This document shows, one piece after another, positions 24,612 through 38,105 of a DNA stretch of 49,566 nucleotides (its first letter is position 1; each line of letters starts with the position of its first letter). The DNA is from an uncultured archaeon (GTDB lineage: Archaea; Halobacteriota; Methanosarcinia; Methanosarcinales; Methanoperedenaceae). The notes beneath the pieces are model-generated. The model made no database searches. It was not told where the DNA came from and saw only the letters and a program-made list of their open reading frames with translations. The translations under genes were made by a program, and so were the position numbers. The stretch is from positions 1-49,566 of the forward strand of contig CABMCA010000068.1 of NCBI GenBank assembly GCA_902384525.1, written 5' to 3'.

Positions 24612-24845
24612 TTAATAGCTTAATCTTCGTGAAGGCAATGGCAATCAAATTCCGTAACGCATTTTTTCTGCAGTTTTTCTTTAATACCCGATAAAATTCA
24701 AATTTGGTCACATTGTAAAATTTTTATGTTGCTGAAGAAACTATATATATCATCATAACCATGATAATCCAAATGTAAGTTTTGTGGGTAGGCCATGAAA
24801 TTTATAATTATGGTGTTATTTAAAAATACGGAGGAAATGGTATTA

Positions 24846-27800
24846 ATGAAACGAACTGAGGGTAATATGTTAGGTTTTTTAAGAATAGTTGTGATCACGC
24901 TGCTGTTTTTTGGATTAACAGCAGGAATGGCGAATGCGTTCTCTTTCAGTGGATATACTTTTAATGAAACGAATGCAACATTAAATAATACTAATGTAAG
25001 TATCGAGATTTACAACCCGATGGGGGGACCACAAGGGCAAGGGCCAGTATTGATAGGTACTAACTATACCTCAAGCAATGATGCCGGGTATTTTATTCTA
25101 AATATAAACGGCTCAGAGCCTGAACTACAAAATTATATGTATAAACCTGTATTGAAGCATTTTAAAAATAATGCCTCAACCGGAACTCTTGACTGGATAG
25201 GCCAGTCCCTTCCACAATTCCCGTATTTTATGATATCTACTATCACTGCGAGCGGCCCGATGGATTTTTACCTGAGGAAGGGGGGCACGATATACATGAA
25301 TGCAAGTGGATTAAATGAAACCGGTGTTGTAACACCTCGCGCATTCAAATATATGATTAAAGACACACAACTGGGCTATCCTATAACTCAAAACTTTAGT
25401 GAAGAACAACTGGATGTCGGCCCTATTCATGTTCCTTCAGAACGGAATTATTCTATCATGATATTTCCAAATCAAAGCATACCGGTAAGCTATGACCTTA
25501 ATAATCTTACTAATTACACTGACAGTAATGCAACTATACGTTTCAATACTTCTATCAGGCCATCATGGGTCTCTGGTTATGCAAATCTATCAGATGGTAC
25601 AAGCAACTTCTCTGAATTTGCAATAGTTGCTTATCAACTGGAACCAGGTAATATGATCGGCAAAGACCATCCAATGCCAAATAATATGAGCGCATTCCGT
25701 CCAGGAGGGCCATTCTCGGATACTTATAATGCAACAAATGGCTCTTATAATATTACTTTGCCAGGTTCGGCCCAGGACGATGGAGTAGATATACTGCTTT
25801 TCGCGACTGCGAAAAATGCGACAAATAATCAATATTATGGGGCATTTAAAAACATAACCATGAATTTTTCAGGAAACGATGTCCCAAACTTTAATTTCAC
25901 ACTGTATCCCCTGTTAGGGAATGTCGAAAACATCAGCGTGAACAATATGGGTCTTATGGGACTACCCCAGAACATTACTACTAAAATGCTTCCCTTCCAG
26001 TTGAGGAATGGCACAAACATAACCAGTTTTGCACATATCGAAATAAAGGTAAATTACTCTGCAAAGGGAAGTGCATCCTTTAAATGGATGCTGGATGTTT
26101 CGCAAGCCGCCAATGGTTCATTCTCTATACCCGCGCTCAGTGCGCCCATAAATAAGATCAATGTGTTCATGCAGGATTATGCACCATTAAAGACATCAAA
26201 GACAGCAGATCAATTGGCATCCTGGCCTGTCTTTATTAATGTATCATCTTTCAAGCCAGGGGCGATAAATCAAAGCGCACCGCCACCATCAATTAAGATA
26301 AAAATGCTGAAAAGCAATGAAATCTGCGATGTTCCACAGCCGGCACAGGGCTGCAATTTATTCCGTGACGCCACTGGCGAAAAGAATATGACTGATTTTA
26401 ACCCGTTCAAGATCGTTATGGGCGGAGGTAAAATCAGCCTGAGGATGAAGGATGCTAACACTAACATCACAGTCCATTACAAGAATGTGGATATGCTGGC
26501 TTCAGGACCGCCGGATGCAGTGTTTGATCCCAGTGCAAACCGTTCATCGCAAAACGGCACAGCGCTGGAGCAGGCGTGGAGATTCGGAAGCCTTGGCCCT
26601 GAGATTTATGACGAGGTTCTCATCGGGATTCCTCTTAACGCCAGTGTGCGTGCAGACAACATTGCAGTTAAGCTTGGGAAACTTTACGATGAAAACTGGA
26701 ATGAAACATGGAACATAAGCGACTTACCAGCAAATAGACCATCTGATTATGCTGCCTTCAATGATTCATGGTTCAACGCCACAACAGGCATGCCTTGCAG
26801 TACAACGGATATAAATGCAAAATGCTACTTTAATACGACAAACAGGATGATCTGGCTTAAAATACCCCATTTCTCCGGTCTCAGTGCTGATGTTTCATCA
26901 ACTGTAGGTAATTTTACAGCGAATCTTACCAACGGCACAGGCATCGGAGGGAAAAGCGTAGCCATGAATTTCACGATGAATGATACCGTGAATACTACTT
27001 CATGGTACAACATCACGTTCCCCAGCGGCTTTGATGCAAGTGCGGCTGTAGTTAATATAAGCATCAATGGCTCAGCAGACCCGACGGATTGGACAAGAAA
27101 CGCAGGCACACTCTTCGTGAATGTATCATCAGGCACTGCTTTGGCTAATCTCAGTGAGGTCCAATATATCAATATCAGCAACATATTGCTGGGATCGACA
27201 GGAATTAAAACAATCAACGTTACAACAAGTAACGGATTAATTGTTCCGTTGAATTATACGGTTGCAAATTACGGCGTTAACCTGTCAGTTTCAGGCAATA
27301 CAACAGGGACAACCAACGCAACGGTAAACAAGACATATACACTTCTCCTGCAAAATAACGGGACTGCTACAGATACATACAACCTGACCGTAGATTCAGC
27401 CGGTGCATCAACAGCAGCCCTGAATGTAAGCGGAAATATTACTTTAGGATCAATGCAGACCCAGGTATTACTTCTGAACGTGACAAATACCACAACAGGA
27501 ACTGCTTATGTCAATGTAACTGCACGGTCGTTAAATGATTCGACAAGAGCAGGTTATATCAATACAACCACGACAATTACTGTGGCACCCACAAGAAATG
27601 TCAGCCTCACAGTTAGTCCAGTATCCGCTTCAGCTTCAACCAGGCCTAACGTAAATGCGACCTATACTCTTAACCTGACAAATACAGGAAATATGGAAGA
27701 CACATATACGCTGGCATTAGATGGGGATACTACGGCATCAGTGAATGCTACAAGCGTTCCTTCAATCGATACGCTTGTAGCAGGAGCGTCAAGAATTTTC

Positions 27801-30521
27801 CTGCTCAATGTGACAAATACAACGCAGGGAGTATTCCACATAAATTTGACTGCGACCTCGAACGGTAACAATGGTAAGTTTGCTTCTGTCAATACCACAA
27901 CGTCTGTGACTCTAAATGCCCCTGATGTGGCAGCCTCTTACTGGGGTTATGTCGTCATTAATGGCGTTTTAAGCTCAGCTTATGTTAGTGTACATGGATC
28001 AAACGGTACCGAAGTTGCAAATACGACCAGCTTCTCTAATGGTACGTACCGGGTATCAGTACCGTGGGACGATATCTATACATCCGCTGATGAGGGTGTG
28101 GTTCCAGGAGAAACCATAACTTTCAATGTGAACAATATATCAGTGCTATCAAGAACCATAACTGTAGTCAATAGTGGAAATAATACCAGGCAGGACCTGG
28201 GACTGTACAATGGAACCATAATCGGCAGCGTTCTTAAAGCAACTACGGGCCTTGGAATAGACGGCGCTACAGTTACCATCACGAATGCCACACTTGGCCT
28301 GTCGGTAACTACGACAACCAACTCATTGGGGTCGTATTCAGCTCCGGTTTTCCCTGCAACATACAGGATAAATGTTACAAAGACAGGATACTTAAACAAT
28401 ACTACTACAACCGGTAAGATTGTTACTGCAAATACCAGCACACCAGTAGCTGCCATTTTGCTTTCCCCCAATACAGTCACAGTAACAGCAAACAGGACAG
28501 TGGGATCAGCAGATGCAGGACAGAATGTCGCTTTCAACCTGACAGTGGTTAATACAGGTGAAAATGCGACGTTCAGTGTAGTGACCTCTGTTACAAATAG
28601 TACGACAGCGACAAACACTACAACACCATCTCCGCTGCTGCTTAATACCACTACATCCGCAGGAAATGTAGTTATATTAGTGAACAACGGCAACCTTGGA
28701 GGCTGGCCTGTCACAGTAACTATCAGCAACGCTTCACAGTCAAAGACCGCGAGCATCACACTGAATGCGATCATGAGGAATTCAAGCGTAGCTAACACCA
28801 CAATCAACAGTACGGTCAACAATTCAAACGTCACAGGCGGTGCATACCTGGAAAATACAAGTGTTGATAATTCAACAGTCGCAAATGCAACATTGATATA
28901 TGCAATTGTACAGAACAATGCAACCATCTCAGGCAACTCGACGTTGATAATGAATTCAACCATAACAGGTCCGGGTACAATAATCACTGATGGCTCGGTT
29001 ATCAAAGGCACTTACAATGCTTCCTACATAGACAACTCCACAATTGGAAATGCATCTGTTGATAGTTCGAACATTACCAGTTCAACCATAAGTGGTAATG
29101 CATCGATCACAAATTCGACACTGACCGGCGCGACTGTTGCCAACTCCACACTTAACTATGTGATAGTGACAGGATATAACTCAATAACAATGACTGGAGG
29201 GAGCACGATAACGAATACAGTCGGTTTGAGCAATATCACACTGGGTGGTGTTGTTGTAACAGGCGACCCAGCTTATGATTATCAAGGCAAGATATCTGCC
29301 GGCAATGGTTGGGTGATTTACCAGAATATAAACTTCACAAAGATATACGAAGCTGTCCGCATATCACAGATGGTTATTGAGCAGAGTGGAGATATAATTA
29401 TTCCAGCAAACATATCTACTCGCATAAATGACACCACTCATGGCGTTTCCAGGAACATCAGTATGAATGTTACTGCCAGCAAGTGGATGGCCATAAACAT
29501 CTCAGAAACATTCATAAGCCCTGATGGTGTCGGATTAGGTTCAGGAAAAATCGGGAACTATCTGGTCATCCGGAGCAATGACACATCGAATGTCACGAAC
29601 CATACCCTGAGATTATACCTTGACACCAATCTGGCAAATTATTCAAGTATCAAGATATATTATTACAATACAACAGCACTTGCATGGCAAGCTTTGACAA
29701 CAACTGCAAGCGGTAATGAAAGCGGCAGATGGTATGTTGAAGCAGCACCCAACCACTTCAGCACCTTTGCTTTGCTTGGAACACCCACATCCACTACATC
29801 CCCAGGCGGCGACAGCAGTAGCGGCGGCGGAAATAGCGGCGGCGGCGGTGGAGGTGGCGGAGGAGGCAGATCAGGTGAGAACACATCCAACATCGAGTTG
29901 ATCGAGAAATATGATATGGAGATCTCAAAGGACACCCTGACATCCTACAGGTTCACACATGAAAAGAACCCCATAATGTACGTCAATATAACTGGCAATA
30001 CCAGCATTGGGGTTATTACGGCATCGGTAGAAGTATTGAAGAATACCTCGACCCTCGTGAACTTCCCTGCTGAAGGACTTGTGTATAAGAACGCCAATAT
30101 CTGGGTGGGAACTGCGGGCTTTGCAACACCAAAGAACATCAAGGATGCTCTCATCAAATTCAGGGTCGCAAATTCCTGGATGAGTGAGAACAGCGTTCAA
30201 AACAGCGCTCTGGTTCTTGAGAAATGGGATGGTAGCAACTGGATACAGCTTGAGACAAAGTTCTTGTCAAAGGATGATACCTACTCGTACTTTGAGGGCA
30301 GGACAAATTCCTTCTCGCCCTTTGCAATAGTTGCAACGTCAAGTGGACAGGCAACTCCCACAGCAACATCCACCCCGGCCGAAACACCCACACCCGGACC
30401 AACAGGAAAACCGGGTCCTGGAGAGGCGGGGGGTATCCCGTCATGGATCATCGGATTGATAATCCTTGTGATCATCGGGGCTGCAGCATACTATTTCCTG
30501 GTGGTGAAGAAGAATGAGTAA
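24846..30521 (+). CDS. Giant exported surface protein with PGF-pre-PGF domain and C-terminal membrane anchor
   Basis: An ~1891-residue secreted protein. ATG 24846 is chosen because GGAGG stands 11 bases upstream and a signal peptide follows (LGFLRIVVITLLFFGLTAGM, cleavage near ANAFS). The body is Asn/Thr/Ser-rich with very many N-x-S/T glycosylation sites. In order: unique N-terminal region; two beta-sandwich repeats (about 820-1020); an SYWGY domain (about 1026-1120); a carboxypeptidase-regulatory-like domain (about 1125-1215); a beta-helix-like Asn/Thr repeat region (about 1308-1475); a Gly-rich linker (about 1651-1675); a PGF-pre-PGF domain (about 1681-1831); a Thr/Pro stalk; and a terminal membrane helix (about 1863-1888). 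It is probably an envelope scaffold or adhesin. Confidence 0.85.
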   Translation: MKRTEGNMLGFLRIVVITLLFFGLTAGMANAFSFSGYTFNETNATLNNTNVSIEIYNPMGGPQGQGPVLIGTNYTSSNDAGYFILNINGSEPELQNYMYKPVLKHFKNNASTGTLDWIGQSLPQFPYFMISTITASGPMDFYLRKGGTIYMNASGLNETGVVTPRAFKYMIKDTQLGYPITQNFSEEQLDVGPIHVPSERNYSIMIFPNQSIPVSYDLNNLTNYTDSNATIRFNTSIRPSWVSGYANLSDGTSNFSEFAIVAYQLEPGNMIGKDHPMPNNMSAFRPGGPFSDTYNATNGSYNITLPGSAQDDGVDILLFATAKNATNNQYYGAFKNITMNFSGNDVPNFNFTLYPLLGNVENISVNNMGLMGLPQNITTKMLPFQLRNGTNITSFAHIEIKVNYSAKGSASFKWMLDVSQAANGSFSIPALSAPINKINVFMQDYAPLKTSKTADQLASWPVFINVSSFKPGAINQSAPPPSIKIKMLKSNEICDVPQPAQGCNLFRDATGEKNMTDFNPFKIVMGGGKISLRMKDANTNITVHYKNVDMLASGPPDAVFDPSANRSSQNGTALEQAWRFGSLGPEIYDEVLIGIPLNASVRADNIAVKLGKLYDENWNETWNISDLPANRPSDYAAFNDSWFNATTGMPCSTTDINAKCYFNTTNRMIWLKIPHFSGLSADVSSTVGNFTANLTNGTGIGGKSVAMNFTMNDTVNTTSWYNITFPSGFDASAAVVNISINGSADPTDWTRNAGTLFVNVSSGTALANLSEVQYINISNILLGSTGIKTINVTTSNGLIVPLNYTVANYGVNLSVSGNTTGTTNATVNKTYTLLLQNNGTATDTYNLTVDSAGASTAALNVSGNITLGSMQTQVLLLNVTNTTTGTAYVNVTARSLNDSTRAGYINTTTTITVAPTRNVSLTVSPVSASASTRPNVNATYTLNLTNTGNMEDTYTLALDGDTTASVNATSVPSIDTLVAGASRIFLLNVTNTTQGVFHINLTATSNGNNGKFASVNTTTSVTLNAPDVAASYWGYVVINGVLSSAYVSVHGSNGTEVANTTSFSNGTYRVSVPWDDIYTSADEGVVPGETITFNVNNISVLSRTITVVNSGNNTRQDLGLYNGTIIGSVLKATTGLGIDGATVTITNATLGLSVTTTTNSLGSYSAPVFPATYRINVTKTGYLNNTTTTGKIVTANTSTPVAAILLSPNTVTVTANRTVGSADAGQNVAFNLTVVNTGENATFSVVTSVTNSTTATNTTTPSPLLLNTTTSAGNVVILVNNGNLGGWPVTVTISNASQSKTASITLNAIMRNSSVANTTINSTVNNSNVTGGAYLENTSVDNSTVANATLIYAIVQNNATISGNSTLIMNSTITGPGTIITDGSVIKGTYNASYIDNSTIGNASVDSSNITSSTISGNASITNSTLTGATVANSTLNYVIVTGYNSITMTGGSTITNTVGLSNITLGGVVVTGDPAYDYQGKISAGNGWVIYQNINFTKIYEAVRISQMVIEQSGDIIIPANISTRINDTTHGVSRNISMNVTASKWMAINISETFISPDGVGLGSGKIGNYLVIRSNDTSNVTNHTLRLYLDTNLANYSSIKIYYYNTTALAWQALTTTASGNESGRWYVEAAPNHFSTFALLGTPTSTTSPGGDSSSGGGNSGGGGGGGGGGRSGENTSNIELIEKYDMEISKDTLTSYRFTHEKNPIMYVNITGNTSIGVITASVEVLKNTSTLVNFPAEGLVYKNANIWVGTAGFATPKNIKDALIKFRVANSWMSENSVQNSALVLEKWDGSNWIQLETKFLSKDDTYSYFEGRTNSFSPFAIVATSSGQATPTATSTPAETPTPGPTGKPGPGEAGGIPSWIIGLIILVIIGAAAYYFLVVKKNE

Positions 30522-30528
30522 GAATCCA

Positions 30529-30552
30529 GGGGCTTTATGCCCCCTATTTTAT
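30529..30552 (+). terminator. Hairpin after the giant surface protein
   Basis: GGGGC and GCCCC flank the loop TTTAT, followed by CTATTTTATT. It starts eight bases after the stop codon and may terminate or attenuate transcription before the cytochrome gene. Confidence 0.45.
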
Positions 30553-30587
30553 TGTCATGAAATCATGCTAACTAAAAAGGAGATTAA

Positions 30588-33287
30588 ATGAAAATGAAGG
30601 AGGATAAAATTATGAGAAAAGGAATATTAACAGGTATAGGAATTTTGATAATACTGCTGGCGCTGGCAGGAATTGGAAGCGCATATCCTAACGGAGGATT
30701 GGGGTGGGGCTGTACTACATGTCATTCATCCATAACGCCCTCGATGGCAACTTTTTACAATCAGACGCATCGTTACAATGATACTGTAATTAATCCATTA
30801 TACTGTGATACTTGCCATGTTGATGTCTCAAAGAAGGTCAGTCTGCCTAACCCCATGAATTTCTCTCTTAGAACAGGCACCCCAACATACCTGAACTCTT
30901 CAGTATGCGAAGACTGCCACAAGGTGAAGTACGATAACTGGAGAAACACAATGCACCGTGTCATGTTGACCAAGAACACTTCAGGTGCGTTGATGAACCT
31001 CAGTCTTCCAGACGGGTTGAACTGGTCTAATACGAATGTGTCTTATATGATAGTAGGTAAGTCCGGTTTTTATTACCTTAATGCGACAGGATATTTATTC
31101 AGGAAATATAACGTTGTAACAGGGGCATTTTCGCCTTATAACACAACCGCTCCAGAAACTAGACCCCAATACTCATGTGGCGGCTGTCATACCACAGGCT
31201 ATAATGCAACCAACGGGAACCAGAGCAATTTATCAGGAATAATAGGAACATGGGCCGAGGAAGGAATTACATGCGAGAACTGTCATGGACCTGGCGGCAA
31301 CGGCCATAATGTGACCGTTTACACCAAGGGCGAGGATTGTATGAGATGCCATTATGGCGCTGGCAGGCAGGGACTGGCAATGACTAACCGTCATGCAACC
31401 GCTCCTGCTGAAGAATCCACAAGCTCCAGCTGTACTTTCTGTCATTCGCCGTATGATAATTACAAAACTGGAAAAGTTTCATCACTTTCTGATGCTTCAA
31501 ATGTCACATGTTCAATTTGCCACAATCCCCATAATACAACAGATGATAAGTACGCAGGTCTTCTCGCGCCAAATGGTTTCAACAATATCAGCTATGCCAC
31601 TGTTGAAGATGTGAAATTAAGCTTCTTCAACGGAACCGCAAGTAATACCAGCAGGAATGCAGGTTCAAATGCTTCGCTGACAGCAGGCAACGATATTTAT
31701 GATATCCTTATGACGCCTGCATATCTGTATTCCGGGAGCGTTTCATCCAGAAAAGACTCCAACTACGGAAATGGATCTATAAACGTAACAGGTCCTGTAT
31801 CTGAAGTTCTCTGCTCCAAGTGCCACTACAGGCACGGCCTGGGTCACATAGCGAATGTGAATCTTACTCACGGCAGGAATAATGTAACTAACAGCAGCGA
31901 AACGGCAACATGCATTGACTGCCACATGTCCAATGCAGGCGGCAAGACGGAGCATACCTTCGATGCGCAGAATGCAACGAACTACCCGAAGTATACCTGT
32001 TCAAAGGGTACGAATTGCCATGTGACAAGCGCACAGAACCTGAGTTTGAGCAACGGCTCGATAGTTCCCCTGCAAACTGAATGGGATGTAAGCAGGCATA
32101 ACAAAACCCAATTTTACAAAAATGATTCGTATTTTGCAAACCAGACTGGCTTTAGCAGCAGCGGCAGCCCCGGCGAAAACAACAGCGATTGCATGAAATG
32201 CCATTCACCGTTTGAATGGAATCCGTTGTATACAATTAAAAATGTATCGGATTTCAGGGGTGTAACATGCGCGGTTTGTCATAATATTCATGATATGGGC
32301 GACTCGATCAACGCATCAGGTCTGAAATATAGCTGGTACAACAGGGATGCAGTGCCTGTCCTGAATAGCACAACTGGCGCTATAGAAAGATACAAAGCTA
32401 ACTACACACTGATGGCAAATACCACAGAACTGTGTGGCAACTGCCACTCGAATGATAATCCCAGAATATATAAGGCAGGACCTGGCTGGAATGGAACAGA
32501 CGCTACCAGTACTAGCGCTACAGTTTATCCGATTTCATCACACGGTCGGCCAGCGAAGGATCTTTTCCTTAGCTCTCCGAAGCAGTCAGGTCAGAACTTC
32601 GAATGTATTGATTGCCACATGTATACCAACAAGACCAATGCCACAGGACTCATGAGCGATACCGATAAGATAACAGGACATAGCTTCACAGTGAATAAAA
32701 CCGGTCTTCAGAATACTTCAAGATGCAGAGGCTGCCATGATGGATCATCATATGCTACAATTTCAGACAGGATTGCAACTGTACAAGCCGCTACCCAGGC
32801 GAAGTGGAATACCACTAACTCAACAGTTATGGGTGCACTGGCATATTATAAGTCCTATACAGGCGTGAAGAACCTGAGCGCGGATAAGATCGCCAGGGCA
32901 TACTGGAATCTCAAGCTGGTGTCATCAGACGACAGCTGGGGTGTACATAACCCGGATAAGGCGACTACACTGCTTGACGAAGCTGCAGCTTATGCGGCTG
33001 CTTCAAATGCCTCTCTCGGACATGCATTGGTATCCACAGTCAATCTGACCGCAGGATGGAACCTGAAGTCTCTCGAAAATGCATCAGCGGTTACATCGCC
33101 GGTCTCGATAATGTCTTCGGTGTCGAGCAATATAACCGTAGTCTGGGGTTACAATACCAGCAACCCGGCAGATCCATGGGAATTGTATGACCCTGCCATG
33201 CCATCATCTCTTAACGATCTGACGGAGATCGTTTCGGGAGAAGGGTACTGGATATATGCACTAAGAGATTGCGTGTGGACTGTATAA
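30588..33287 (+). CDS. Exported multiheme c-type cytochrome (15 CxxCH plus one CX5CH)
   Basis: An 899-residue cytochrome with a signal peptide (residues about 10-32, cut near GSAYPNG). I count 15 CxxCH haem sites plus CSKGTNCH at residue 471. The N-terminal part resembles the cytochrome c554 group: CEDCHKVKYDNWRNTMH, CGGCHTTGYNA and ITCENCHGPGGNGH. Two CIDCHM units are each followed by an HTF/HSF and another haem site. The last ~80 residues lack haem and end in GEGYWIYALRDC, like small modules found in other archaeal surface proteins. ATG 30588 follows GGAG; ATG 30612 follows GGAGG and is also possible. It probably carries electrons outside the membrane. Confidence 0.9.
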   Translation: MKMKEDKIMRKGILTGIGILIILLALAGIGSAYPNGGLGWGCTTCHSSITPSMATFYNQTHRYNDTVINPLYCDTCHVDVSKKVSLPNPMNFSLRTGTPTYLNSSVCEDCHKVKYDNWRNTMHRVMLTKNTSGALMNLSLPDGLNWSNTNVSYMIVGKSGFYYLNATGYLFRKYNVVTGAFSPYNTTAPETRPQYSCGGCHTTGYNATNGNQSNLSGIIGTWAEEGITCENCHGPGGNGHNVTVYTKGEDCMRCHYGAGRQGLAMTNRHATAPAEESTSSSCTFCHSPYDNYKTGKVSSLSDASNVTCSICHNPHNTTDDKYAGLLAPNGFNNISYATVEDVKLSFFNGTASNTSRNAGSNASLTAGNDIYDILMTPAYLYSGSVSSRKDSNYGNGSINVTGPVSEVLCSKCHYRHGLGHIANVNLTHGRNNVTNSSETATCIDCHMSNAGGKTEHTFDAQNATNYPKYTCSKGTNCHVTSAQNLSLSNGSIVPLQTEWDVSRHNKTQFYKNDSYFANQTGFSSSGSPGENNSDCMKCHSPFEWNPLYTIKNVSDFRGVTCAVCHNIHDMGDSINASGLKYSWYNRDAVPVLNSTTGAIERYKANYTLMANTTELCGNCHSNDNPRIYKAGPGWNGTDATSTSATVYPISSHGRPAKDLFLSSPKQSGQNFECIDCHMYTNKTNATGLMSDTDKITGHSFTVNKTGLQNTSRCRGCHDGSSYATISDRIATVQAATQAKWNTTNSTVMGALAYYKSYTGVKNLSADKIARAYWNLKLVSSDDSWGVHNPDKATTLLDEAAAYAAASNASLGHALVSTVNLTAGWNLKSLENASAVTSPVSIMSSVSSNITVVWGYNTSNPADPWELYDPAMPSSLNDLTEIVSGEGYWIYALRDCVWTV

Positions 33288-33307
33288 GTCCACACTTTTT
33301 ATTTTTT
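33273..33307 (+). terminator. Intrinsic-type terminator overlapping the cytochrome stop codon
   Basis: GTGTGGACT (33273-33281) and AGTCCACAC (33287-33295) form a perfect 9-bp stem with loop GTATA, followed by TTTTTATTTTTTT. The stop codon TAA (33285-33287) lies in the loop and stem, so the last codons of the cytochrome encode the terminator. Confidence 0.75.
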
Positions 33308-33319
33308 TGGAGTGACAGA

Positions 33320-34336
33320 ATGAAAAAAAATATATTATTAATAATACTATTGTTTTTGGTCCCCCTGGGCCAGGCAATCAGCGAACCGCTTGTGACTTCT
33401 TACTGGGGTTATGTGACCGTAGATGGCATCACAAAGCCAAATGCGTCGGTTACAGTGCTTGATTCATCATGCAATGTAGTTGCAAGCGCAACGAGCACGC
33501 AAGATTCTACGTACCTGGTAAAAGTACCCCTGGATCAAGGACTAGCTTCAGGCGAGACCCTGACTTTCAATGTAGATGACAAAACCGCAAAAACACTAAC
33601 AGTTGGCGGCAAAGGAACAAACAACAGGCTGGACCTGGCAGTATCAGGTTCTTCAACGAATACTTGTACTGTCGGAGGAGGTGGAAGCGTCAACGGCGGC
33701 TCCGGAGGCGGAGCCAGTATTTCTGCAGAATCCTCTGACAACATCATAAAGAAAGAAGTGAGGGAAGAAGTCTTATCCATAAATGTTCCCAGGTCATTTC
33801 GTTTCACGACCCCGGAACTGCCCGTTTCCGAGGTAGCGGTAACGAGCAATATCAATGCCGGTCTTATAAATGTCCAGGTCGAGCTTCTTAAGAGCAGGTC
33901 AACACTGGTGAAAGACGATGCACCCGGAGATGTTTATAAATACGTCAATATCTGGGTTGGCACATCAGGTTTTGCAGTGCCAAAGAACATAAAAGAAGCT
34001 GTTATCAAATTCAAACTTGAGAATTCCTGGCTGACATCAAAAGGTTTCAAAGAATCGGATATAGCAATGCTGAGATGGGACGGAACACAATGGATATCGC
34101 TTGCTACTGAGAAAAAGAACAGTGATGAGACGTTTACGTACTATGAGGCAAAGACCAACGCATTCTCACCGTTTGCCATCTCAGGCGTTAAAGGGACAGT
34201 GCCTGCGGCCGGGGCTGAAGTAACTAACCAGACGCAAACTCCTGCACCTGCGGCTACTAAAAAAGCGCCAGGGTTAGAGTTCGTTCTTGCCATAGCGGGT
34301 TTGATGGCTGTAGTTTTAAGAAAGAGAAGCAAGTAG
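33320..34336 (+). CDS. Exported PGF-pre-PGF domain protein with PGF-CTERM-like anchor
   Basis: A 338-residue secreted protein. ATG 33320 follows GGAGTGA and opens a signal peptide (ILLIILLFLVPLGQAIS). An SYWGY domain (about 25-110) and a PGF-pre-PGF domain (about 155-300, with YKYVNIWVGTSGFAVPKNIK) are both close relatives of domains in the 1891-residue protein upstream. The C-terminus KKAPGLEFVLAIAGLMAVVL followed by RKRSK has the form of a PGF-CTERM signal, which archaeosortase A processes and lipid-links. It is therefore probably anchored to the outer face of the membrane or S-layer. Confidence 0.87.
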   Translation: MKKNILLIILLFLVPLGQAISEPLVTSYWGYVTVDGITKPNASVTVLDSSCNVVASATSTQDSTYLVKVPLDQGLASGETLTFNVDDKTAKTLTVGGKGTNNRLDLAVSGSSTNTCTVGGGGSVNGGSGGGASISAESSDNIIKKEVREEVLSINVPRSFRFTTPELPVSEVAVTSNINAGLINVQVELLKSRSTLVKDDAPGDVYKYVNIWVGTSGFAVPKNIKEAVIKFKLENSWLTSKGFKESDIAMLRWDGTQWISLATEKKNSDETFTYYEAKTNAFSPFAISGVKGTVPAAGAEVTNQTQTPAPAATKKAPGLEFVLAIAGLMAVVLRKRSK

Positions 34337-34553: not shown

Positions 34554-37500
34554 ATGAAAAAGATCCCTATCATACTGGCATTGTTGGCCTATCTTACATT
34601 CCTCAGCTCAGCAGGCAATGCGCTTGAATGCATGGTATGCCATAGCTCTGATGCGAACGAATTCCCTTTAATTAACCTATCTCTTTTCGGTGTTCACGCG
34701 GATGTCAATTCTACAGATGGGGCAGGAAATATTACAAGTGGGGACTGCATAGCATGCCATTATTCGGCCAATACATTGGTTTTCCATAGTTTTCCAATAT
34801 CCACATATAACTGCGAAGACTGCCATATCAACGGAACAGTTCCGGCTGCTCCCAGGGTTTCTAATCATAACCGGAGTGGAAATATTTCTGTAGCCGCTTT
34901 TTGCAGCGATTGCCATAACAAGACCTCAAATCTTTTCAGATACAGCGCCAATGCAAGTGCAGCACATTATGGAAGGAACGCAAGTTTCGGCCAGTCTCCA
35001 GGCGAGTCGTACTGTGCTTTTTGCCATCAGAATTCCTCATCTGTTTACCGGGATTTAATGCAAAACCAGGATAATAGCAGGAGAGGAAACCATACATCCG
35101 GCATAATCAATCTCAACCATCCCGCAGGGCGCCCCGATTGCACGACCTGCCACGGGACTGACAGGATACACGGCACAAACCTGACAAAGCCGGTTCCGAA
35201 TTCAGGATTCTGCAATAACTGTCATCAGAGCGACAGGCTGCAAAAGGACAGGCACGCAGGAAGTGTGGAATGCATACTGTGCCATGCAGATACGGACTCG
35301 GATATCCATAATATAAAATATTTACTTCCTGATGGAACATATCGCAGCGTGAACGCTACCGGCTGCGGAGATTGTCATGATTTCGGACTTCCAGCGCCTT
35401 ACTTCAGGCTCCAGTTCCAGGAAGCGAACTGCACTACCTGCCACCTGGGGAACGGCCTGATAAAATTTGCAGGCGCGCCGCGCTTTCCCTCGCCATTGAT
35501 GCACAGTTCTAATCCTGCTTCCGGGAGATTGTGGAACGGCACACAGGCCGCTTACTGGAACAGCCAGGTAAATGCCTGCTATTATTGCCATGGGTATAAG
35601 CTTCATGATACAAATCCACTTGGAAATGTCTCGAATATCACTGCGGGAAACGCCCTGAACCAGAGCATTACAAATAAAAGTTTCTGGTGCGCCAACTGCC
35701 ATTACAATGGCAGTGACCCGGCTGGAAATTATTCATATAAAGCAACATCCTATACTCCGGTACCACCTGAAATGCAGAACAAGTCCGGGCGTGTTCCCGC
35801 AACAGCAAGCGATGGGACTACTTTCTACAACCACTCGCTGGCTGAATATTCCGATCTTGCATGCAAGACATGCCATGCACCGAATTCTTCTGCAACAAGC
35901 GCTTTATTCATTCATAATGTTGCCGCAGGCGGAGGAGGTCCAAACTGCATCTCCTGCCATGATAGCAGAGGTGGAGGTGCGCCTGCCGATAAGAGAATAG
36001 ATATTGTTTCATTTAATTTGAGCGTGCATTATAACATGAACGGCGGCGGGAACGGTGCGTGCTGGGCATGTCACGGCGATGGGACTGCACCTCTGGGACA
36101 TCCAGCGGGATATAAATCGCCGAAGAAGTGCAGTAATGATGCGTGCCATTCCCTTGACCAGAAATTCCGCGCTCCCATGATATATTCACATTTCAGGAAT
36201 GCAAGCCTGATTGACAACCCGAATAATGTTGTCAATTACAATGTAACAACCAGCAATGACTGCCAGGGATGCCATGCAAACAGCGTAAATTCACAGGGCA
36301 GGAACATAAATTCAACCGTATCCCATTTTGCCTCAGGCGATCTCTTTGACAGTATCAATTGCATATACTGCCATCTTAATAAGGACAATTCCAGGATATG
36401 GGGGAATGCTACGTTGATATACGAGAACAGGACTGCACTTGTAGAACTCAACAGGGAAAATAACAAATTCAATTCCAGGGAGGGGGAATCTGTGGACTTT
36501 GGTTTCGGTTTCAGCTTCAAAGTGCTTGAAGTCTCATCAGTCAGGAGCAGCGTGCTGATGGAACTTATAAAAGAAAATGTAATTGTAGATAAGAGACTTG
36601 TAGGTATTGGAAATTATACATATGAGGAGTACCTCACTATAGACAATGGAAGTGAAAAAGTGCCTGTAATTGTAATTAATATCACAGGCATTTTTAAAGG
36701 AAATGATACTGGCTTTGTCCAGTTTGAAGGTTTCAGGCTCAAAAGAGTCCATCCTGAGAAAAAAATCACGTCATGTTATTCATGCCATATGAAAGCAATG
36801 CCAAAAGCAAAGTATAGAGTCATCGAAAGGGTCAGTGGTGAGAACAGTGAGAAAGATGAGATCTATTACACTAAAGAAACGGCCAATTTTACAGATAATA
36901 AAATATTCGATGAAAATGTTGTTCTTCAATTATTAGGAGTACTTACTGACAAAGACCTGCATGTGACCATACAGCCGGAAAAACACAGGTCACTGTATGA
37001 AGGAGAAGTCTGGAATATCTCGGAAGGAACAAGCCTTGTGGTAAGAGGCGTGGATACAAAAAGCGAAGTTGTTATTCTCCAGCTGCGTACCGGCGATTAT
37101 TTTTATGAGGATATCGTAAACAGGGGTGGTATATTTGAATTCACTCCGCAAATTAATTATCTTGGGAACCAGCCAAAAAATATCACGGTTTTCAGGGCAA
37201 GGGTGTCGGGAATAATCCAGGCAAGGCCGAAAAACATGGTAGTTATTGAGGATGTGGTTTCCCTGTCGCCTGATATCAGGAAAATAAATGCAAATCAGAC
37301 GCTTGCTGGTTATAATACAAGCTGGCTGTGGGAAAATTCAACCATTAACGTTGGAAAAATCCCTGATAATTTCCATTCTCCCCAGATATATGACGGCGGC
37401 AACGGTGGGGGAAACTGTCTTTCCTGCCACGGGGCGGAGGGTTTTTCACAGAAAAAAGTATTCTCACTCGGAAAGCATGATATTTTAAACGGCGGAGGGA

Positions 37501-38105
37501 ACAATGCCTGCCGCGCATGTCATGGCGGGACTGCGGATATACAGGCGCATCCGGCTGGTTACAAGAACCCCAGGAACTGCCTGAGCTGTCATGCAGCTAC
37601 AAATAATAATTATAACGCCGTGTACATAGGTGACGAGGAGCATAAGAACGAAAAGTGTGAAACCTGCCACGTATCAAATATCCATGTAATTACAGGGCTG
37701 CACATGACGCCCTCAGTCAAAAAAATAGTAATTACAAAAGAAAATAACATGACCATATTGAGAGCATCGGTATCTGCCGGATATAAAATGAAAGTAAGAG
37801 ATGCCAGGTATTACATTGATACACCGCTTAATAAATCCGGGATGTCCCCGGTAGACGGTGTTTTTGATTCACAGGCAGAGGATGTATCTGCCCGGATGGA
37901 TCTATCAAAATTATCGTCAGGCAAACATGTGGTGTATGTTGAAGCAATGGAGAGAAAAAACAATTGGGGGGTGCCATCTTCAGTTGAGTTCATAACAGAG
38001 GGCGGGAGTTTGAAAGTCCCGGAGACGAAAAACACAAGTATGCTCACATTGGCAGACACGTTAGCTATATTAATGATCGTTTTTGTTTTGAGACGTTTTA
38101 GATAA
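34554..38105 (+). CDS. Very large exported multiheme c-type cytochrome with S-layer-like beta region (22 CxxCH plus one CX4CH)
   Basis: An 1183-residue cytochrome. Residues 1-24 are a signal peptide (ILALLAYLTFLSSAGNA). I count 22 CxxCH sites plus CSNDACH at residue 526: 18 in the first ~610 residues, one near 740, and four near 960-1045. The long intervals about 620-735 and 760-930 are haem-free and beta-rich (FSFKVLEVSSVRSSVLMELI, YEGEVWNISEGTSLVVRGVD), resembling the duplicated domain of Methanosarcina S-layer proteins. The C-terminus ends in a hydrophobic helix and RRFR, a membrane anchor. Cytochrome plus S-layer-like fusions are known in ANME archaea and thought to carry electrons through the S-layer. 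Confidence 0.88.
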   Translation: MKKIPIILALLAYLTFLSSAGNALECMVCHSSDANEFPLINLSLFGVHADVNSTDGAGNITSGDCIACHYSANTLVFHSFPISTYNCEDCHINGTVPAAPRVSNHNRSGNISVAAFCSDCHNKTSNLFRYSANASAAHYGRNASFGQSPGESYCAFCHQNSSSVYRDLMQNQDNSRRGNHTSGIINLNHPAGRPDCTTCHGTDRIHGTNLTKPVPNSGFCNNCHQSDRLQKDRHAGSVECILCHADTDSDIHNIKYLLPDGTYRSVNATGCGDCHDFGLPAPYFRLQFQEANCTTCHLGNGLIKFAGAPRFPSPLMHSSNPASGRLWNGTQAAYWNSQVNACYYCHGYKLHDTNPLGNVSNITAGNALNQSITNKSFWCANCHYNGSDPAGNYSYKATSYTPVPPEMQNKSGRVPATASDGTTFYNHSLAEYSDLACKTCHAPNSSATSALFIHNVAAGGGGPNCISCHDSRGGGAPADKRIDIVSFNLSVHYNMNGGGNGACWACHGDGTAPLGHPAGYKSPKKCSNDACHSLDQKFRAPMIYSHFRNASLIDNPNNVVNYNVTTSNDCQGCHANSVNSQGRNINSTVSHFASGDLFDSINCIYCHLNKDNSRIWGNATLIYENRTALVELNRENNKFNSREGESVDFGFGFSFKVLEVSSVRSSVLMELIKENVIVDKRLVGIGNYTYEEYLTIDNGSEKVPVIVINITGIFKGNDTGFVQFEGFRLKRVHPEKKITSCYSCHMKAMPKAKYRVIERVSGENSEKDEIYYTKETANFTDNKIFDENVVLQLLGVLTDKDLHVTIQPEKHRSLYEGEVWNISEGTSLVVRGVDTKSEVVILQLRTGDYFYEDIVNRGGIFEFTPQINYLGNQPKNITVFRARVSGIIQARPKNMVVIEDVVSLSPDIRKINANQTLAGYNTSWLWENSTINVGKIPDNFHSPQIYDGGNGGGNCLSCHGAEGFSQKKVFSLGKHDILNGGGNNACRACHGGTADIQAHPAGYKNPRNCLSCHAATNNNYNAVYIGDEEHKNEKCETCHVSNIHVITGLHMTPSVKKIVITKENNMTILRASVSAGYKMKVRDARYYIDTPLNKSGMSPVDGVFDSQAEDVSARMDLSKLSSGKHVVYVEAMERKNNWGVPSSVEFITEGGSLKVPETKNTSMLTLADTLAILMIVFVLRRFR

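Follow-up and report, generated by a model that had tools for sequence, protein, structure and literature searches.

A multihaem cytochrome of a Ca. Methanoperedens-type archaeon with an inner S-layer sub-domain used twice around a conserved haem, and a possible two-piece variant in relatives

The window, meaning the whole stretch of 49,566 nucleotides that was analysed, encodes an 1183-aa multihaem cytochrome (MHC) whose mid-chain beta-rich module is one inner S-layer sub-domain used twice and not two different sub-domains. We propose that this protein is probably an S-layer-inserted electron conduit of the ANME MHC-A class, in a Ca. Methanoperedens-type methanotrophic archaeon whose genome falls in that genus. 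More tentatively, the two copies of the sub-domain around an invariant, probably bis-histidine haem may form a conduit tile, which in MHC-B-like relatives would become a two-piece plug with its last strand supplied in trans, by donor-strand complementation.

A motif count of the gene product gave 23 haem motifs (22 CxxCH and one CxxxxCH). These account for all 46 cysteines (2 x 23) with none left over, and 27 histidines outside the motifs are available for the 23 haems. The gene and its parts are as follows.

34554..38105, + strand: S-layer-fused multihaem cytochrome, 1183 aa, 23 haem motifs
34554..34625, + strand: N-terminal signal peptide, about residues 1-24, by reading (hydrophobic run to ..SSAGNA); model helix 4-15
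34629..36374, + strand: N-terminal array of 18 haem motifs, residues 26-607 (motif count; PF14522/PF14537 matches)
36447..36731, + strand: first S-layer sub-domain, residues 632-726 (PF07752, 35.1 bits alone; 3U2G, E 3.6e-11 by profile)
36750..36752, + strand: His733, invariant (64/64 in alignment A3), proposed second axial ligand of the linker haem
36774..36788, + strand: linker haem motif CYSCH, residues 741-745 (motif count, alignment)
36801..37298, + strand: second S-layer sub-domain, residues 750-915 (PF07752, 32.3 bits alone; VIA Z 12.2; 3U2G, E 3e-11 by profile)
37416..37670, + strand: C-terminal cluster of four haem motifs, residues 955-1039 (motif count)
37701..38006, + strand: Ig/FnIII-like beta domain, residues ~1050-1151 (AF2 pLDDT 80-92; VIA Z 8-10.6)
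38040..38099, + strand: predicted C-terminal membrane helix, residues 1163-1182 (model helix; hydrophobic run then RRFR, by reading)

The first-pass annotation had described two haem-free, beta-rich stretches carrying characteristic strings, separated by one haem and followed by four. Both strings were recovered exactly, FSFKVLEVSSVRSSV in stretch 1 (residues 653-667, window 36510-36554) and YEGEVWNISEGTSLVV in stretch 2 (residues 815-830, window 36996-37043), and AlphaFold gave two beta-sandwiches. Alignment of the stretches with hhalign paired FSFKVLEVSSVRSSV with YEGEVWNISEGTSLVV as corresponding parts of a duplicated unit. The haem layout was as described: 18 motifs precede stretch 1, a single one starts at residue 741 in the linker, and four (955, 986, 1009 and 1035) follow stretch 2.

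The stretches had also been likened, by residue pattern, to the duplicated S-layer domain of Methanosarcina. A profile search with this S-layer duplication family (PF07752, Pfam) bore the likeness out, as the whole protein scored 56.5 bits (E 2.8e-15) over two stretches, and each stretch alone exceeded the curated Pfam cut-off of 30 bits (35.1 bits for stretch 1, 32.3 bits for stretch 2). The match covers profile positions ~96-217 of 259 only, twice over, so the whole domain is not represented; TIGR01567 (S_layer_rel_Mac) reached 50.5 bits, below its curated cut-off of 121.9, as expected for partial domains. Two whole S-layer domains were considered and rejected. Half 1 starts (632, by Pfam) only ~24 residues after the end of haem 18 (607), and it ends (726) only ~14 residues short of haem 19 (741). 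The rest of the ~259-position domain does not fit around half 1 in so little space. The S-layer identity thus held by profile, profile-profile comparison, solved structure and fold, but for the middle of the domain only.

Profile-profile alignment (hhalign) of half 1 against half 2, each represented by 23 rows (the window and 22 of the 63 loci past the spacing filter given below), returned a probability of 99.2% and an E of 3.6e-19. Against four S-layer domains of the organism's own genome the probabilities were 97.1 for half 1 and 94.7 for half 2. The best PDB chain match of both halves by profile was 3U2G/3U2H, the S-layer protein of Methanosarcina acetivorans, over chain positions 94-203 for half 1 (E 3.6e-11) and 99-218 for half 2 (E 3e-11). 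A single-sequence search was weak: phmmer placed 3U2G at E 0.0046, behind an alphaRep chain at 0.0019. A small profile built from only 4 S-layer sequences of this genome reported stretch 1 (16.2 bits) and left stretch 2 unreported. Shuffled stretches were reported in 0/2000 cases with each of three local profiles. The S-layer matches are not due to chance.

The fold of the module was assessed with AlphaFold on residues 588-966, using a 64-row alignment. This model had a mean pLDDT of 76.0 and a pTM of 0.57, the sandwiches lying mostly at 80-97 and the haem ends below 50. In Foldseek only 3U2G and 3U2H reached an E below 0.001, with low whole-model TM-scores to 3U2G (0.28/0.37) and an rmsd of 21.7 over the 332-column alignment. 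VIA matched 3U2G with Z 12.2 (rmsd 3.1, 126 aligned, residues 750-915 on 376-510), followed by 3U2H (Z 9.1) and CcsBA (7.7). The comparison with the Methanosarcina S-layer domain that had been called for therefore came out in favor of the S-layer reading for the second half; this single-domain alignment covers half 2 only, and the identity of half 1 rests on profiles. The full-length model was poor (mean pLDDT 51.4) and its cytochrome parts are unreliable, with residues 750-915 still matching 3U2G at Z 12.4. Residues 1050-1151 matched FnIII, PKD and sulfite dehydrogenase Ig-like domains in VIA (Z 8-10.6). The first sandwich, residues 629-731 (36438-36746), gave middling VIA matches to CcsBA (Z 7.7 and 6.7) and to flavivirus E proteins (~6), and neither is evidence of kinship.

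S-layer proteins encoded by this genome match two separate regions of 3U2G, chain positions 19-89 and 98-253 (profiles). Both halves of the cytochrome match within the second of these only, at ~94-218 of 286; because both match only there, and match each other, the halves are the same sub-domain. The published description is of an S-layer domain in which a flexible, haem-carrying linker connects two sub-domains (PMC9012536), and no prior description of an anatomy with one sub-domain used twice was found in the open-licence literature. PF07752 had 10 matches in the organism's own genome, two of them in the 1183-aa cytochrome. The ORFs behind 6 of the other 8 matches, those outside the contig-end fragments C123 and C36, contained no haem motifs. 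The 1183-aa protein is the only S-layer cytochrome found in this genome, whose assembly is 97% complete. The same genome also encodes a 175-aa haem-free protein (G000:C90, L115 5344-5868, minus strand) in which a single S-layer sub-domain (PF07752 at 32.9 bits over profile positions 110-207) is combined with a signal-peptide-like start and a hydrophobic C-terminal segment.

Matches to the cytochrome were found in 55/60 relatives by genome search. In each of the 30 loci that were read, which take in the window's own, one haem lies between haem-free gaps of 137-142 and 198-218 residues and is followed by four haems; in 12 of the 30 the ORF is 1174-1226 aa long and carries 23 haems. A scan of named genomes kept 75 loci, of which 63 passed a spacing filter, the other 12 being fragments at contig ends, split genes, or genes that do not have both halves. 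A further test did not require a haem in the linker. Among the 2226 ORFs of L009-L113, 98 cytochrome ORFs have two half-domain hits, and all 98 carry exactly one haem in between; they amount to 72 distinct segments (many genomes come from two sources), and the half-domain profiles used were built from the spacing-filtered set itself. Residues 733, 741, 744, 745 and 941 were invariant in 64/64 rows of alignment A3, also made from the spacing-filtered set. The number of haems after the linker haem in relatives is 4, 16, 17 or 19. Viral contigs searched for relatives gave 17 pattern matches, none of which was confirmed. Open frames of 5615 and 5442 aa with related multihaem sequence were seen at G008:C49 and G008:C86.

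ANME MHC-A, B and C have been defined, and electron transfer through the S-layer proposed, by Chadwick et al. (2022, PLoS Biol, PMC9012536). An S-layer-fused ANME MHC-A with one linker haem is already described there, and the 1183-aa protein is a new sequence of this published class. The assignment rests on published features, likened by description: at least 20 haem motifs (23 here), an S-layer domain (PF07752 at 56.5 bits, each half alone above 30), a single linker haem motif (residues 741-745), a C-terminal transmembrane helix (predicted at 1163-1182, hydrophobic by reading), and no N-terminal M6-like domain by Pfam. The point of difference is that the published form has two sub-domains and a flexible linker, whereas here both halves are the same sub-domain. 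Assignment to ANME MHC-B was rejected, as there was no M6 match (Pfam), the first haem is at residue 26, and no CcmF/CcmF2 gene is adjacent; the neighboring genes encode instead a PGF-pre-PGF protein and RNA polymerase subunits.

One 23-haem S-layer MHC of Ca. Methanoperedens was upregulated on an electrode during electrogenic growth (Nat Commun 2024, PMC10874420). It is from the same organism group and shares the haem number and the S-layer domain, and going by this description it is probably the orthologue of the 1183-aa protein. The Methanosarcina tile protein MA0829 (3U2G/3U2H, PF07752/DUF1608) shares the inner beta-sandwich, a signal peptide and a C-terminal membrane helix, but has two whole domains and no haem, the cytochrome having two inner sub-domains only. 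The tile protein of M. acetivorans is described as having a signal peptide, tandem DUF1608, a tether and a C-terminal helix (PMC12369344). The cytochrome lacks the two whole DUF1608 domains that mark SlmA1/MSTP. MtrCAB porin-cytochrome conduits are proposed to be alike in forming a haem wire across the outermost cell layer (an analogy drawn in PMC9012536), but the 1183-aa cytochrome is a single polypeptide without a porin and is not homologous as a system.

Upstream of the S-layer cytochrome, at 24795-34336, two PGF-pre-PGF surface proteins of 1908 and 355 aa are encoded on either side of an 899-aa cytochrome with 15 haems; the genes downstream are those for RNA polymerase subunits. The upstream group is kept beside the S-layer cytochrome in several Methanoperedens. 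The order is identical throughout in Ca. Methanoperedens BLZ2, where the PGF-pre-PGF, 15-haem and S-layer cytochrome proteins are 75-92% identical to those of the window (the S-layer cytochrome itself 92%) and the adjacent RNA polymerase subunits 98-100%. The 15-haem gene is near the S-layer cytochrome in 6/11 MHC-A-like loci (L039, L040, L042, L043, L064 and L069) and is not near it at L041, L044, L046, L047 and L045, the last of these being a cut locus.

In the conduit that we favor, the cytochrome would be exported, have haem attached at 23 sites and be anchored through its C-terminal helix to the cytoplasmic membrane. Mid-chain, its two beta-sandwiches, copies of the tile protein's inner sub-domain, would be set in the S-layer, with haem 19 as a relay across it, ligated by H745 and probably H733. 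Haems 20-23 on the membrane side would receive electrons from membrane or pseudoperiplasmic cytochromes, and the 18-haem N-terminal array outside would hand them over to extracellular cytochromes or to a metal oxide, electrode or partner; this direction of flow is presumed. The earlier suggestion was of an S-layer plane with haem clusters to either side. The chain layout fits, and the arrangement is the published model for the class; the position in the lattice is one that we infer. Because the cytochrome has no outer part of the S-layer domain, it cannot be taken for granted that it docks in the lattice.

That absence also favors an alternative, in which the sandwiches are spacers or glycoprotein-like stalks of a borrowed S-layer fold and the membrane-anchored cytochrome passes through or beside the lattice, replacing none of its units. 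An unrelated Ig/FnIII-like stalk domain follows the module, and the 175-aa haem-free protein indicates that the sub-domain is used outside tile proteins. A mere spacer would need neither the tight spacing (137-142 and 198-218 residues in 30/30 loci) nor the invariant linker haem, and we regard this explanation as unlikely. More improbable still, in our view, is a surface terminal reductase that its sub-domains hold on one face of the S-layer, outer or inner, while other, smaller cytochromes carry electrons across. Other carriers are at hand, in that the 15-haem secreted cytochrome and two PGF-pre-PGF proteins lie directly upstream, in the same order in BLZ2, and some Methanoperedenaceae are reported without any S-layer cytochrome (PMC7327174). 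Against docking on one face, haems flank the module on both sides in the chain and a conserved haem lies within it.

Published expression of S-layer MHCs varies with growth mode. They were highly expressed in Mn(IV) reduction, with 12-, 22-, 113-, 52- and 19-haem examples (PMC7082337). In the Fe(III)-reducing Ca. M. ferrireducens expression was low (PMC7327174), and PMC10874420 describes S-layer MHCs as lacking expression when growth was syntrophic or on iron minerals. Since five Methanoperedenaceae MAGs are listed in PMC7327174 as having no S-layer MHC, the protein is not required in all members of the family.

In some relatives the module is divided between two genes, as follows.

L088, L090, L091, L093, L121-L127, L131, L135: split pairs, Methanoperedens
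L107, L109: split pairs, another Methanosarcinales lineage

These reduce to 11 distinct split loci, nine of Methanoperedens and two of the other lineage, and in all 11 the genes are complementary: gene 1 runs to position 122-127 of the 179-position half-2 profile, and gene 2 covers it from 117-129 to the end. By the model, the split point falls between strands equal to window residues 880-888 and 895-912, before the last strand of the second sandwich. Gene 2 encodes a signal-peptide-like start, the last strand of the second sub-domain and a membrane-anchored 16-haem cytochrome. A CcmF-like gene lies 3' of gene 2 (by Pfam for L093, by reading in the other loci inspected for it), which marks the split pairs as MHC-B-like. 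Stand-alone 16-haem genes of 730-755 aa were found nine times, in 7/31 genomes of the genus, and the fused form in three of the 31, one of which also has a 267-aa fragment. No split pair was found in the window's genome. In METP1 (L111 7859-9414) gene 1 of one of the 11 split pairs is interrupted, with a transposase-like gene upstream by reading.

Read-through of a stop in the split relatives was considered and is unlikely, as the two genes are in different frames at L127, L107 and L109 and gene 2 has its own signal-peptide-like start. Donor-strand completion, suggested by the complementary sequences, would have the trans strand come from the N-terminus of the separately exported, membrane-anchored 16-haem cytochrome, so that the wire would consist of two polypeptides. 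No prior description of the two-gene variant was found in the open-licence literature, and the term 'donor strand' together with S-layer, cytochrome and Methanoperedens was not found among the open-licence matches listed.

How electrons pass the proteinaceous S-layer of ANME archaea is an open question of anaerobic methane oxidation. The anatomy described here sharpens the published model on three testable points: the piece of the S-layer protein that is used, its presence in two copies, and the histidine that probably serves as the second ligand of the linker haem. The two-gene variant would offer a natural cut site and a route to reconstitute the module from two parts.
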